Shown: in pieces, positions 20,166 to 45,543 of the stretch | Layout: each line of letters opens with the position of its first letter | How positions within the stretch are numbered: the first letter of the stretch is position 1 | NCBI RefSeq assembly: GCF_017939615.1 | Contig: NZ_JAGKSR010000001.1 | Span: forward strand, 1,116,001-1,180,000 | Source of the DNA: Microbacterium sp. BLY | GTDB lineage: Bacteria > Actinomycetota > Actinomycetes > Actinomycetales > Microbacteriaceae | DNA length: 64,000 nucleotides | Direction: 5' to 3' | Position numbers and translations under genes: made by a program | The notes under the pieces: generated by a model | Database searches by the model: none | What the model saw: the letters and a program-made list of their open reading frames with translations, nothing else | Told to the model about the DNA's origin: nothing

Positions 20166-21944
20166 ATGACGGCAGCGACGGCCCCGGGTCCTCATCGCGC
20201 CCGGTACCGCCGCATCCTGTCTTTCGCGAGCCGCGAGTTCGTGGCCATCTGGTGGTTCGAACTCGTCCTTCCGCGCTTCGGGCTGTCCGGCGTGGCGGAG
20301 CGCACGCGCGCGCACCGCATGCAGCGGTTCGCGCGGCGCTTCCACACCCTGGCGGTCGAGCTCGGCGGCCTGATGATCAAGGTCGGACAGTTCATGTCGT
20401 CGCGCCTCGACGTTCTGCCGCCCGAGATCACGGCCGAGCTCGAAGGACTGCAGGACGAGGTCCCGGCGGTGCCCACCCCGCAGATCCGGGCGCTCGCGGA
20501 GGCCGAGCTCGGCATGCCCCTCGACCGGGTCTACGCCTGGTTCGACGACACCCCGGTCGCCGCCGCGTCGCTCGGGCAGGTGCACCGGGCGCGGCTGTCG
20601 CCGCTCGATGCCCAGGACACCGGGCTCGACGAGGTGGTCGTCAAGGTGCAGCGCCCGGGCATCGACGAGATCGTCGCGGTCGACCTCGCCGCCCTCCGCC
20701 GGGTCGCCCGCTGGCTGACCAGGGTCAGGATCGTCGCCGACCGCGTGGACGCCCCCGCCCTGGTCGAGGAGTTCGCGGTGACGAGCCTGGAGGAGATCGA
20801 CTACCTCCACGAGGCCCGCAGCGCCGAGCGGTTCCGCGAGAACTTCGCCGACGACCCGCGGGTCGCCGCCCCCGAGATCGTCTGGGAGCGCACGACGCGT
20901 CGGGTGCTCACCCTGTCCGACGTGACGGCGATCAAGATCAACGACACCGCCGCCCTCCGCGCGGCCGGCATCGACCCGTCCGCCGTCGCCGACGCGTTCG
21001 CGGAGGTCATGTTCGACCAGGTCTTCACCCACCGGTTCGTGCACGCCGACCCGCACCCCGGCAACATCTTCGTCACGCCCGTCCCTTCGACGAGCTCAGG
21101 GACCCAGGCGGGCTCAGGGACCCAGGCGGGCTCAGGGACCCAAGGGGGCCCAGGGACCCAAGGGGGCTCAGGGACCCAAGGGGGCTCGGGGGGCTTCCGG
21201 CTGACGTTCATCGACTTCGGCATGATGGCGGACGTCTCCGACAACCTCCGGCAGGGCCTGCGGACGCTCCTCATCGCGGTGACCGCGCGGGACAGCAGGG
21301 GCCTGGTGCGGGCGGCGCAGGAGATCGGCGTGCTCCTGCCGTCCGCCGACACGGGGGAGCTGGAGCGGGCGCTGACGGCGCTCTTCGCGCGCTTCGGCGG
21401 CATGGGATTCGCGGAGCTGAGCCGGGTCGATCCGCGGGAGTTCACCGACTTCGCGGAGGAGTTCGGCGACATGGTGCGCCGCCTCCCGCTGCAGCTGCCG
21501 GAGGACATGCTGCTGCTGATCCGCGCCGTGTCCCTCACCTCCGGCATGTGCAGCGGCCTGGATCCCGCGTTCAACGTGTGGGACGCGGCCGAACCGTACG
21601 CCGCCCGCCTCCTCCGCGACGAGTCCGGCTCCCTCATGCAGGACATGGCGGCGCAGGCGATGGCGAACGCGGCCACCACCTGGCGGCTCCCGAAGCGCAT
21701 CGACGACATCATCACCCGCGTCGACGACGGCAACGTCTCCTTCGACACCTCGCGGCTGGAGCGGCGGCTCGACCGGCTGGAGGGCATCGCGCGGCGGATC
21801 GCCTCCGGCGTGCTGTTCGCCGCGATGCTCGTGGGCGGCGCACTGCTCGTGACGCCGCTGCCGCCGTTGGGCATCACCCTGCTGTGCGTGTCCGTACTGC
21901 CGCTGCTCGGCGCCCTGTTCCTGGGCCGACGCCGCCCCCGCTGA
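20166..21944 (+). CDS. ABC1/AarF/UbiB-like atypical kinase with a repeat-encoded insertion
   Basis: A 592-aa protein of the UbiB/ABC1 family. Visible: KxGQ motif (K72-VGQ), 'AAASLGQVHRA' Ala-rich loop, VVVKVQRPGI with the ATP Lys (K160), catalytic HADPHPGN (293-300) and the metal-binding DFG (D350). Two C-terminal membrane spans (~545-590) anchor it. Family members affect quinone or lipid metabolism; the actinobacterial role is unclear. Between HADPHPGN and DFG sits a ~37-residue insert (307-343) of PSTSSGTQ and GSGTQ(A/G)G repeats encoded by repeat DNA at 21083-21194. The family normally has ~12 residues there. Being a flexible loop it may leave activity intact. Confidence 0.88.
   Translation: MTAATAPGPHRARYRRILSFASREFVAIWWFELVLPRFGLSGVAERTRAHRMQRFARRFHTLAVELGGLMIKVGQFMSSRLDVLPPEITAELEGLQDEVPAVPTPQIRALAEAELGMPLDRVYAWFDDTPVAAASLGQVHRARLSPLDAQDTGLDEVVVKVQRPGIDEIVAVDLAALRRVARWLTRVRIVADRVDAPALVEEFAVTSLEEIDYLHEARSAERFRENFADDPRVAAPEIVWERTTRRVLTLSDVTAIKINDTAALRAAGIDPSAVADAFAEVMFDQVFTHRFVHADPHPGNIFVTPVPSTSSGTQAGSGTQAGSGTQGGPGTQGGSGTQGGSGGFRLTFIDFGMMADVSDNLRQGLRTLLIAVTARDSRGLVRAAQEIGVLLPSADTGELERALTALFARFGGMGFAELSRVDPREFTDFAEEFGDMVRRLPLQLPEDMLLLIRAVSLTSGMCSGLDPAFNVWDAAEPYAARLLRDESGSLMQDMAAQAMANAATTWRLPKRIDDIITRVDDGNVSFDTSRLERRLDRLEGIARRIASGVLFAAMLVGGALLVTPLPPLGITLLCVSVLPLLGALFLGRRRPR
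21083..21194. repeat. intragenic short repeat array (PST-S/G-SGTQ-encoding)
   Basis: The left end (21083-21105) is the 23-bp element also found, with two mismatches, twice at 43902-43948. It is followed by five degenerate 18-bp units built on GGGCTCAGGGACCCA. The array length is a multiple of three and is read in the same frame in both genes, giving Ser-Gly-Thr-Gln peptides. It has no spacers and is not CRISPR. Confidence 0.8.
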
Positions 21945-42957: not shown

Positions 42958-45543
42958 TCAGAGCCGGTCGACGGCCGTCACCGTGAGGACGGCCTCGCCG
43001 GCCTCATCGGACGCCGCCAGGTCGACGGTGGCGCTGATGCCCCAGTCGTGATCGCCCGCCGGGTCGTCGATGATCTGCCGCGCGGTCCACTCCGTCGGTC
43101 CTTCCGTGAAGAGCAGCATGCGGGAGCTGCGGGCGTCCGGACCGGTGCCGATCTCGTCGTGCTCGGCGAAGTACGCATCCAGCGCGTCCGACCAGGCGGC
43201 GCCCCCGAACGACGGATCGAGGTCGGCCAGGGCGTCCACGTCCTCCCGCGCGGCGAGCTGCACGCGCCGGAAGAGCTCGTTGCGCACCAGGGTGCGGAAG
43301 GCGCGCGTGTTGCTCGTGAGGCGCTTCGGGGCGGGCGGCACGATCGGTTCGTCGTCGTCTCCCCGGGCGACCGGCCCCGCGGCCAGCTCGCTCCACTCGT
43401 CGAGCAGGCTGGAGTCGATCTGGCGGACGAGCTCGCCGAGCCACGCGATGAGGTCGTGGAGGTCCTCGTCCTTCCGCTCCTCCGGGATCGTCTGGGAGGC
43501 GGCACGATACGCGTCCGACAGGTACCGCAGGACGACGCCCTCGGAACGGGCGATCTTGTAGAACGCGACGTACTCGCCGAACGACATAGCCCGCTCGTAC
43601 ATGTCGCGCACGACGGACTTCGGGTGCAGCTCGAAGTCGCGGATCCACGGCTGCGCCGCGCTGAACGTCTCGAACGCGGCCTCGAGCAGTTCCTCCAGCG
43701 GCTTCGGGTAGGTGATGCCCTCGAGGAGTTCCATGCGCTCGTCGTACTCGATGCCCTCCCGTTTCATCGCCGCGACGGCCTCGCCCCGGGCCAGGAACTC
43801 CTGCTGGCTGAGCACGGCGCGGGGGTCGTCGAGCGTCGCTTCGACGATGGAGATCATGTCGAGCGCGTACGACCCCGTCCCCACCTGGGTCCCTGAGCCC
43901 TGGGTCCCTGAGCCTGTCGAAGGGTGGGTCCCTGAGCCTGTCGAAGGGTCCAGTAGGTCGAACGCGGCGAGGGCGAACGGCGACAGCGGCTGGTTGAGCG
44001 CGAAGTTCGGCTGCAGGTCGACCGTGAGGCGGACGCCCGGGGGTGCACCGGGCACTCCCGTGTCGAACGTCTGCACGACCCCGGACTCCCGGAGGGTGCG
44101 GAAGATCGCGAGGGCGCGGAGGGCGAGCGCGCGCTGGCGGGCGCGGGGCTCGTGGTTGTCGAAGACGAGTCGGCGGACGTTGCCGAACACGTCGCCGCCC
44201 CGCGCGATGACGTTGAGCAGCATCGCGCTGGTGATCTGCATGTGCGAGGTGAGGGTCTCCGGCGTCGCGTCGATGAGCTTGCGGAACGACGGCTCGCCCC
44301 ACGACACGAACCCGTCGGGTGCCTTCTTGCGGATGATCTTTCGCTTCTTCTTCGGGTCGTCGCCGGCCTTGCGGATCGCGGCGAGGTTCTCCGTCTCGTG
44401 CTCCGGCGCCTGCGCCACGACGGTGCCCGCGGTGTCGTAGCCCGCGCGTCCGGCCCGGCCAGCGATCTGGTGGAACTCCCGGGCGTTGAGCTGGCGCATC
44501 CGGGTGCCGTCGAACTTCGTCAGCGCGGTGAGGAGCACGGTCCGGATGGGGACGTTGATGCCCACGCCGAGCGTGTCGGTGCCGCAGATCACGCGGAGCA
44601 GGCCGCGCTGGGCCAGCTGCTCCACGAGCCGGCGGTACTTCGGCAGCATGCCGGCGTGGTGCACGCCGATCCCGGCACGGAGGAAGCGGGAGAGCGTCTT
44701 GCCGAACGCCGTCGTGAACCGGAAGCCGCCGATGAGCGCGGCGATCTCGTCGCGCTGCTCCCGCGTCGCCACCTTCGTGCTCGACAGCGCCTGCGCCCGC
44801 TCCATGGCGGCGGCCTGCGAGAAGTGCACGATGTAGATCGGCGCCTGGCCCGTGTTGAGGAGGTCGTCGATGGTCTCGTGGATCGGCGTCGTCTCATAGA
44901 AGAAGTGCAGCGGGACCGGGCGCTCGACGCCGGTGACCGAGGCGGTGTCCCGCCCGGTGCGGCGCGTCAGGTCGGCGGCGAGGGTGGTGACGTCACCGAG
45001 GGTCGCCGACATCAGCACGAACTGCGCCTGCGGAAGCTCGAGGAGCGGCACCTGCCACGCCCACCCGCGGTCGGGGTCGCCGTAGAAGTGGAACTCGTCC
45101 ATGACGACGAGACCGACGTCCGCGGCCTCGCCCTGCCGTAGCGCGAGGTTCGCGAGGATCTCGGCGGTGCAGCAGATCATCGGGGCGTCGGCGTTCACCG
45201 ACGAGTCGCCCGTCACCATGCCGACGTTCTCCGCCCCGAACACCTCGGCGAGGGCGAAGAACTTCTCGCTCACGAGGGCCTTGATCGGCGCCGTGTAGTA
45301 GCTGCGGCGTCCGCCGACCATCGCCGCGAAATGGGCGCCGACCGCGACGAGCGACTTCCCAGTGCCGGTTGGCGTGGACAGGATCAGGTTCGCGCCGGAG
45401 ACGATCTCGATCAGCGCCTCGTCCTGCGCGGGATACAGGCGGATGCCCGTCGACTCCGCCCACTCCACGAACGTCAGATACACCGCATCCGCGTCCGCCG
45501 CGTCGGGGACGAGAGAGGGGTCGAGCCGCGGCGTGGGAGTCAT
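42958..45543 (-). CDS. DEAD/DEAH-box RNA helicase with DUF3516, with repeat insertion
   Basis: An 861-aa SF2 helicase: motif I 'TPTGTGKS', II DEFH, III SAT, VI 'HQIAGRAGRAGYDT'. N-terminal two RecA domains up to ~430, then a Ski2/MTR4-related region and the DUF3516 C-terminal part ('WGEPSFRKLIDATPETLTSHMQITSAMLLNVIARGGD', 'HPKSVVRDMYERAMSFGEYVAFYKIARSEG'). Actinobacterial homologues probably unwind structured RNA. A repeat-coded loop 'DPSTGSGTHPSTGSGTQGSGTQ' interrupts the region around residues 530-555 (DNA 43884-43950). The ATG at 45543 is the natural start. Confidence 0.9.
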   Translation of the reverse strand: MTPTPRLDPSLVPDAADADAVYLTFVEWAESTGIRLYPAQDEALIEIVSGANLILSTPTGTGKSLVAVGAHFAAMVGGRRSYYTAPIKALVSEKFFALAEVFGAENVGMVTGDSSVNADAPMICCTAEILANLALRQGEAADVGLVVMDEFHFYGDPDRGWAWQVPLLELPQAQFVLMSATLGDVTTLAADLTRRTGRDTASVTGVERPVPLHFFYETTPIHETIDDLLNTGQAPIYIVHFSQAAAMERAQALSSTKVATREQRDEIAALIGGFRFTTAFGKTLSRFLRAGIGVHHAGMLPKYRRLVEQLAQRGLLRVICGTDTLGVGINVPIRTVLLTALTKFDGTRMRQLNAREFHQIAGRAGRAGYDTAGTVVAQAPEHETENLAAIRKAGDDPKKKRKIIRKKAPDGFVSWGEPSFRKLIDATPETLTSHMQITSAMLLNVIARGGDVFGNVRRLVFDNHEPRARQRALALRALAIFRTLRESGVVQTFDTGVPGAPPGVRLTVDLQPNFALNQPLSPFALAAFDLLDPSTGSGTHPSTGSGTQGSGTQVGTGSYALDMISIVEATLDDPRAVLSQQEFLARGEAVAAMKREGIEYDERMELLEGITYPKPLEELLEAAFETFSAAQPWIRDFELHPKSVVRDMYERAMSFGEYVAFYKIARSEGVVLRYLSDAYRAASQTIPEERKDEDLHDLIAWLGELVRQIDSSLLDEWSELAAGPVARGDDDEPIVPPAPKRLTSNTRAFRTLVRNELFRRVQLAAREDVDALADLDPSFGGAAWSDALDAYFAEHDEIGTGPDARSSRMLLFTEGPTEWTARQIIDDPAGDHDWGISATVDLAASDEAGEAVLTVTAVDRL
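43884..43950. repeat. intragenic PSTGSGT-type repeat, two exact 23-bp copies
   Basis: The same 23-bp element as at 21083-21105 (two mismatches) occurs exactly at 43902-43924 and 43926-43948 (24-bp period), plus a partial unit at 43884-43899. On the coding strand it reads PSTGSGTH/Q, the same frame as in the ABC1 kinase gene. Confidence 0.85.

Follow-up and report, generated by a model that had tools for sequence, protein, structure and literature searches.

A REP-like palindromic repeat in the loop before the DFG motif of an ABC1-type kinase of Microbacterium sp. BLY: probable repeated entry and filtering by reading frame

The kinase gene and its insert

The gene of an ABC1-type kinase in Microbacterium sp. 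BLY raises the question of how an array of repeated units came to lie between two catalytic motifs of an enzyme. The window considered here is the whole stretch of DNA that was analysed, 64,000 nucleotides in length. An initial annotation, made from the sequence of the window, placed a repeat-derived insert in open frame between the HADPHPGN and DFG motifs of this kinase, and both the place and the open frame were borne out, as the reading frame runs uninterrupted across a 22-bp repeat copy and a tandem array (Table 1). The same annotation gave the insert a length divisible by three, which is not the case for the segment proposed (21083-21194, 112 nt) but applies to the net difference from the relatives (loops of 48, 21 and 16 codons).

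Table 1. Features of the window connected with the repeat
Feature	Positions	Strand	Basis
Insert-bearing gene of an ABC1/UbiB-type atypical kinase (592 aa)	20166..21944	+	ORF, PF03109, Foldseek
48-codon loop, HADPHPGN to IDFG, containing the insert	21066..21209	+	Alignment; strands of the model flank it
Type A repeat copy in the kinase gene, translation PSTSSGT(Q)	21083..21104	+	Exact pattern match
Tandem array, period 18, from the 3' half of the repeat, GSGTQ-like units	21094..21191	+	Tandem Repeats Finder, score 154
DEAD-box helicase with DUF3516, the other window gene containing copies in frame	42958..45543	-	PF12029, E 9.9e-192
Type A repeat copy in the helicase	43903..43924	-	Pattern match
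Type A repeat copy in the helicase	43927..43948	-	Pattern match
Partial repeat unit adjoining both helicase copies	43884..43902	-	Array 43884-43914, period 15 (Tandem Repeats Finder), and sequence reading

The host protein belongs with the ABC1/UbiB/COQ8 kinases by its domain, its catalytic and DFG motifs and its fold. It matched the ABC1 profile PF03109 with an E-value of 7.2e-68 in a Pfam profile search; its structural model matched COQ8A in Foldseek (E 1.6e-13), where the nearest solved folds were COQ8A, MSMEG_1954 and Rv3197. The DPHPGN and DFG motifs are unchanged in all 39 aligned kinase sequences. In the AlphaFold2 model, which was built from 39 sequences and has a mean pLDDT of 72.6, residues 309-340 have a pLDDT below 50 and are flanked by strands 301-305 and 344-348. 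The low pLDDT is consistent with a disordered insert, short of proof with so shallow an alignment. The open frame, the predicted fold and the unchanged catalytic motifs lead us to infer that the protein has been kept intact, and the insert probably barely affects the kinase.

The kinase gene has CCCTTCGACGAGCTCAGGGACC at its type A position, and the repeat pattern was found three times in the window, against 0.00 expected from shuffles of the window. The array comprises 5.4 copies with 93% matches, and the in-frame translation of the insert gives PSTSSGTQ followed by GSGTQ-like units. A search of the window against Rfam returned zero matches.

The repeat family and its distribution

The units of the family are 22-25 bp long and fall into two types, A (CCCTTCGACRRGCTCAGGGACCCA), with an outer stem CCCT/AGGG, and B (GCTTCGACAGGCTCAGCGACCCA), with an outer stem GCT/AGC; a conserved 11-nt interior is present in both. 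Mapping of the element across the genome, which the initial annotation had suggested, gave 54 exact matches of the core TTCGACNRGCTCAGG in the 3.24-Mb BLY genome and none for the reversed control. Type B has 27 copies there. Among 149 Microbacterium genomes, the type A core is present in 91, with 0 to 331 copies each and the highest number in genome G063, and type B is present in 61. A shorter core was found in 86 of 396 genomes of the phylum, mostly in one or two copies. The top count outside the genus, 37, belongs to a genome from another family of the class (G435) and is not matched by its sampled relatives, with few copies or none; a patchy distribution of high copy numbers thus extends beyond Microbacterium.

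These copies bear on the reading of the insert as a low-complexity Pro-Ser-Thr-Gly loop that arose by slippage or convergence, with no mobile repeat involved. Such residues are abundant in many relatives and a tandem array is present; however, the match is one of DNA and retains rare codons (TCA in 15 of 639 serine codons and ACA in 8 of 773 threonine codons of the training ORFs), and the 54 genome-wide copies, to which the reversed control has no counterpart, are in many cases non-coding. Such an origin is extremely unlikely.

Of the 46 copy clusters scored in the BLY genome, 16 were called coding and 30 were not; 25 of these 30 are flanked by the stop codon of a gene, and 23 lie within 38 bp. 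The calls are based on a codon-usage score trained on the ORFs of the window and applied to 153-bp flanks, with clusters near the ends of loci excluded. All 54 type A copies of the BLY genome were read, and those of genomes G029, G063, G099, G107, G078, G138 and G129 in part. The layout of the clusters is that of REP repeats, and a REP-like hairpin family located mostly behind stop codons had not been foreseen by the initial annotation. As in the broad definition of REPs, the units are short, similar and present in many copies, lie mostly outside genes and close to gene 3' ends, and form inverted dimers and BIME mosaics.

The sequence tags of REPs are rare in this family. GTAG occurs within 14 nt of one of 73 BLY copies on one side and of none on the other, and beside 0 and 5 of the 77 copies sampled in G063; its variant GTGG is frequent, but belongs to the type B stem or tail. 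CGTC accompanies 3 and 6 of the 73 BLY copies on the two sides and 0 and 3 of the 77 in the G063 sample. The unit of 22-25 bp also departs from the pattern of MITEs and Rickettsia palindromic elements (RPEs), with its 100-150-bp unit, terminal inverted repeats and target duplication.

The outer stem covaries, both between types A and B and in the flanks of viral copies described below. Inverted dimers of A followed by B are common behind genes in the BLY genome and fold strongly, one of them at -24.1 kcal/mol (z -8.5), and for a single unit folding is no stronger than in shuffles (z 0.56 for A and 0.89 for B). In G063, A and B alternate as tandem mosaics, and the outer stems have 7 bp, GGTCCCT/AGGGACC in A and GGTGGCT/AGCCACC in B, with compensatory changes around a common core. 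This genome has 331 A and 269 B cores, and on its contig C11 (L166-L172) long BIME-like A/B mosaics stand behind genes with a spacing of ~70-130 bp. A replication-strand bias of the copies in G029 and G063 was ruled out by a fuller listing, in which the strands are mixed.

The core CTTCGACAAGCTCAGG was also found on at least 120 metagenomic viral-contig stretches (L273-L352), where it is often followed by GCGAACGG or ACGAACGG. In the flanks, analysed for 80 of these stretches, the next pair outward is complementary in 65 of 83 distinct cases against a shuffle mean of 36.3 (0 of 2000 shuffles reach 65), mostly as C-G (42) and T-A (18). The second pair outward is slightly above chance (52 of 2000 shuffles), and pairs farther out are at chance level. 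Because of this covariation, the hairpin appears to be constrained outside Microbacterium as well, and the viral-contig cores suggest that the repeat family is spread across many bacterial groups. A similar stretch was found on one Microbacterium plasmid and on none of the phage records searched.

The kinase loop in relatives and other invaded genes

The proposal of the initial annotation that the repeat has spread into coding DNA is supported by the loops of relatives together with the genome-wide copies. Among 80 kinase relatives the loop has 15 to 52 residues. The window kinase has 48; its sister from Microbacterium sp. LCT-H2 (L037) has one unit in a loop of 21 residues; and the next nearest, from M. 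sufflavum (L038), has zero units and 16 residues. As had been expected, the insert is missing from near relatives or differs there in copy number, and an ancestral loop of one length in all orthologues, which had been named as the finding that would speak against an insertion, is not the case. The family loop was also said to be normally short, which did not hold: it varies from 15 to 52 residues (median 21) in the 67 of 82 kinase rows without the element.

These 82 rows comprise the window kinase, its 80 relatives and L229, from genome G129. Element A or B (at most one mismatch to an 18-mer) is carried by 15 of them, and a tree built without the loop requires at least 13 state changes for the element; L229 was included because it bears the element, a biased draw that contributes one of the 15 rows and up to one or two of the 13 changes. 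The position within the loop varies among the kinases, both A and B are found, the copies of L229 are reversed, and L101 looks reversed as well. Because of the number of changes, the varying place, the occurrence of both types and the reversed copies, the loop must have been entered many times, with some losses possible. Neither the many invasions of this loop in different species nor the strong filtering of the frame described below was foreseen in the initial annotation. L229 itself (contig C20, locus positions 1089-1212) is a diverged ABC1 kinase with two reversed A units and one B unit in its loop.

As an overall explanation, a REP-like repeat that has entered the kinase loop and other loops repeatedly and has been filtered by frame is highly probable. 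Copies of the palindromic repeat have come to lie more than once in the loop between the catalytic loop and DFG, the 3' half then multiplied in tandem in some lineages, and the PST(G/S)SGTQ frame is strongly preferred among the five stop-free frames, a pattern read as selection.

Exact cores occur in 11 of the 80 kinase loops (10 of 79 when L037, which shares the copy of the window, is excluded), and three further clusters lie outside the loop in ~0.59 Mb of the same 80 loci. The loop, which was chosen for study since the window has the element there, is ~430-fold denser in copies per base than the rest of these loci, or ~43-fold if all three other clusters sit in an assumed 10% of intergenic DNA. 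Tolerance alone fails to account for this density, and a target preference or a benefit may be involved. Retention of the insert for a benefit to the kinase, such as a linker role in regulation or interaction, would agree with the high occupancy of the loop and the single preferred frame, yet 67 of the 82 kinases have loops of 15 to 52 residues without the element, two rows (L101 and L229) have it reversed, the identical peptide occurs in many unrelated enzymes and the loop is predicted to be unstructured, so that this explanation is improbable.

Repeated entry is also indicated by other genes. The initial annotation had the helicase of the window share an identical 23-mer with the kinase; the family is indeed the same, with 20 of 22 bases in common, but AG replaces GA at the variable dinucleotide. 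The helicase loop, resolved in 14 of 30 loci (the other 16 were off-motif), contains A in the window genome and B in G005, and the 12 other resolved relatives have loops of 8-16 residues without the element. For PEP carboxylase, 25 loci were compared, from 57 genomes with a match. Its loop has one unit in the BLY genome, three 39-bp units in G029 and a decayed unit in G033, and the 22 other relatives are without the element. The insert occupies the place of PGREDAA-like residues in relatives, with a divergence too great to call this a single replacement. Judging from these alignments, the helicase and PEP-carboxylase loops were each entered in more than one species. Further genes entered in the BLY genome include what we take to be those of phenylalanyl-tRNA synthetase beta, riboflavin synthase, a semialdehyde dehydrogenase, an HrpA-type helicase, ABC ATPases, a P-type ATPase (in two places), a PIF1-like helicase, an M20 peptidase, a TipA-like regulator and an HhH-GPD protein.

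The peptides of the kinase loop of L040 (PATGSGTPGG) and the PEP-carboxylase loop of L412 (PTSSGAP) resemble that of the repeat; these loops look like decayed copies in which the peptide has outlived the DNA match.

One of the six reading frames of type A contains a stop. In 15 of the 16 coding clusters of the BLY genome a single orientation and frame is used, which reads PST(G/S)SGT (ASTGSAT in the single B case; P ~4e-10 with the five open frames taken as equal), and the one remaining cluster has a degenerate copy, in topoisomerase I. In the seven other genomes, partly sampled, the favoured frame was found in 10 of 18 cases (P ~9e-4), with the off-frame copies giving mainly PEPVEG and LRQAQG readings; the filter is clearly weaker outside the BLY genome. 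Since a moving element is blind to codon phase, the bias is taken to reflect selection in favour of a linker that is small, polar and unstructured. In the kinase, the helicase and PEP carboxylase, enzymes of known fold, linkers have been inserted naturally and repeatedly into loops, and such loops can reveal how proteins gain new unstructured segments.

Possible means of spread and relation to known repeats

The repeat is probably non-autonomous. Y1_Tnp (PF01797, the RAYT transposase family) was detected in one of 149 Microbacterium genomes, with control genomes matched as expected, and the profile search found it absent from the BLY genome, so a RAYT is not supported as the present-day mover. 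The sole Y1_Tnp gene (L135, G041 contig C15, E 1.9e-42) belongs to a genome with one A copy. Reverse transcriptase occurs in 18 of the 149 genomes, the BLY genome not among them, and does not track the repeat; by a count made by eye, 43 genomes have at least 10 A copies, two of which (G005 and G083) contain it. TnpB-like proteins, above the cut-off in four of the 149 genomes and absent from the BLY genome, do not track it either, and the matches of this search at E ~1e-4 were mostly a short conserved 134-aa protein. The 80 kinase loci were also examined for a young empty site; they contain only three other clusters, none of which gave a usable pair.

The repeat might be a classical REP relic, spread by a since-lost RAYT of the IS200/IS605-type Y1 kind and now subject to inheritance, decay and local amplification. 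Its layout, dimers and mosaics match those of RAYT-moved REPs, and excerpts of the literature contain a RAYT-linked Coxiella REP with a similar interior, GGGCTGAGCTTGCGAAGCCC. This history seems doubtful in view of the single genome with Y1_Tnp among 149 (G041, with one A copy), of GTAG being within 14 nt of one of 73 BLY copies, and of the changes in one loop, at least 13, which together with the differences between sisters favour spread within the genus.

Alternatively, no dedicated Y1 transposase may be needed, and new copies may come from template switching or patch repair in which hairpin copies and short matching stretches take part. This route is favoured tentatively and at low confidence, and an unrecognised trans-acting enzyme is about equally likely. 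The latter, a possible though rather uncertain agent, would be of another HUH or DDE family or borne by a mobile element, and would have a target preference. Recurrent entry into the same loops, the strong differences in copy number between species, and the presence of the core on metagenomic viral contigs and of a similar stretch on one Microbacterium plasmid would agree with it; reverse transcriptase (18 of 149 genomes) and TnpB-like proteins (4 of 149), neither of them present in the BLY genome, yielded no candidate, and no target duplication was seen in a comparison without a close empty-site pair.

More broadly, and again tentatively, the repeat may represent a hairpin family of Actinobacteria that spreads today without Y1/RAYT, by an undescribed route preferring certain coding loops, and mutagenises housekeeping enzymes naturally by inserting linkers; loops would be entered repeatedly across species, filtered by frame and then extended by tandem duplication. 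With 0 to 331 copies and almost no Y1, the genomes allow gene content and repair background to be compared directly with copy number.

The comparison with described systems draws on excerpts of the papers cited. Like GTAG REPs, BIMEs and REPINs (PMC2817692, PMC3733652), the Microbacterium repeat is a short palindrome in many copies, with inverted dimers and mosaics, located behind genes and occasionally within them; unlike GTAG REPs, it has rare GTAG, no Y1 in 148 of 149 genomes and recurrent entry into the same loops of the same genes. With CGTC REPs (PMC3733652) it shares inverted dimers, intragenic units and the circumstance that no dedicated transposase is known, and it differs in the rarity of the CGTC tag. 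The stems of CGTC REPs have 8-9 bp and begin with AT pairs, with loops of 4-5 bp (PMC3733652), whereas the Microbacterium outer stems CCCT/AGGG or GCT/AGC surround a conserved 11-nt interior. The five phyla named in the excerpts of that CGTC REP survey do not include Actinobacteria; according to the same excerpts, GTAG and CGTC REPs that lie within genes, often those of repair, code for 20 to 30 residues, and the conclusions call the spread of palindromic repeats without a dedicated transposase an open question (PMC3733652). In the excerpts of PMC12306157, where REPs are broadly defined, counts are given for three actinobacteria. Like the Microbacterium repeat, RPEs (PMC10969869, PMC2229807) are palindromes in frame in conserved protein genes, with the protein apparently retained. 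RPEs are ready-made peptide inserts of 105-146 bp, in contrast to the Microbacterium unit of 22-24 bp, which grows locally in tandem and re-enters one loop in different species.

In-frame palindromes are already known, from Rickettsia and other REPs. A literature search by core strings, which space-broken sequences and figures escape, had no paper on a bacterial repeat among the matches listed, and a search for Microbacterium with REP had no paper on this repeat among the matches listed. In the literature searched, no description was found of the Microbacterium family, of its RAYT-less spread or of its recurrent entry into the same loops.

In the excerpts of PMC2817692, a Coxiella REP, GTAGGTTGGGCTGAGCTTGCGAAGCCCAAC, is paired with a RAYT in Table 1 of that paper. 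It resembles the interior of the Microbacterium repeat, CTGAGCYTGTCGAAG, and a common origin of the two is possible.
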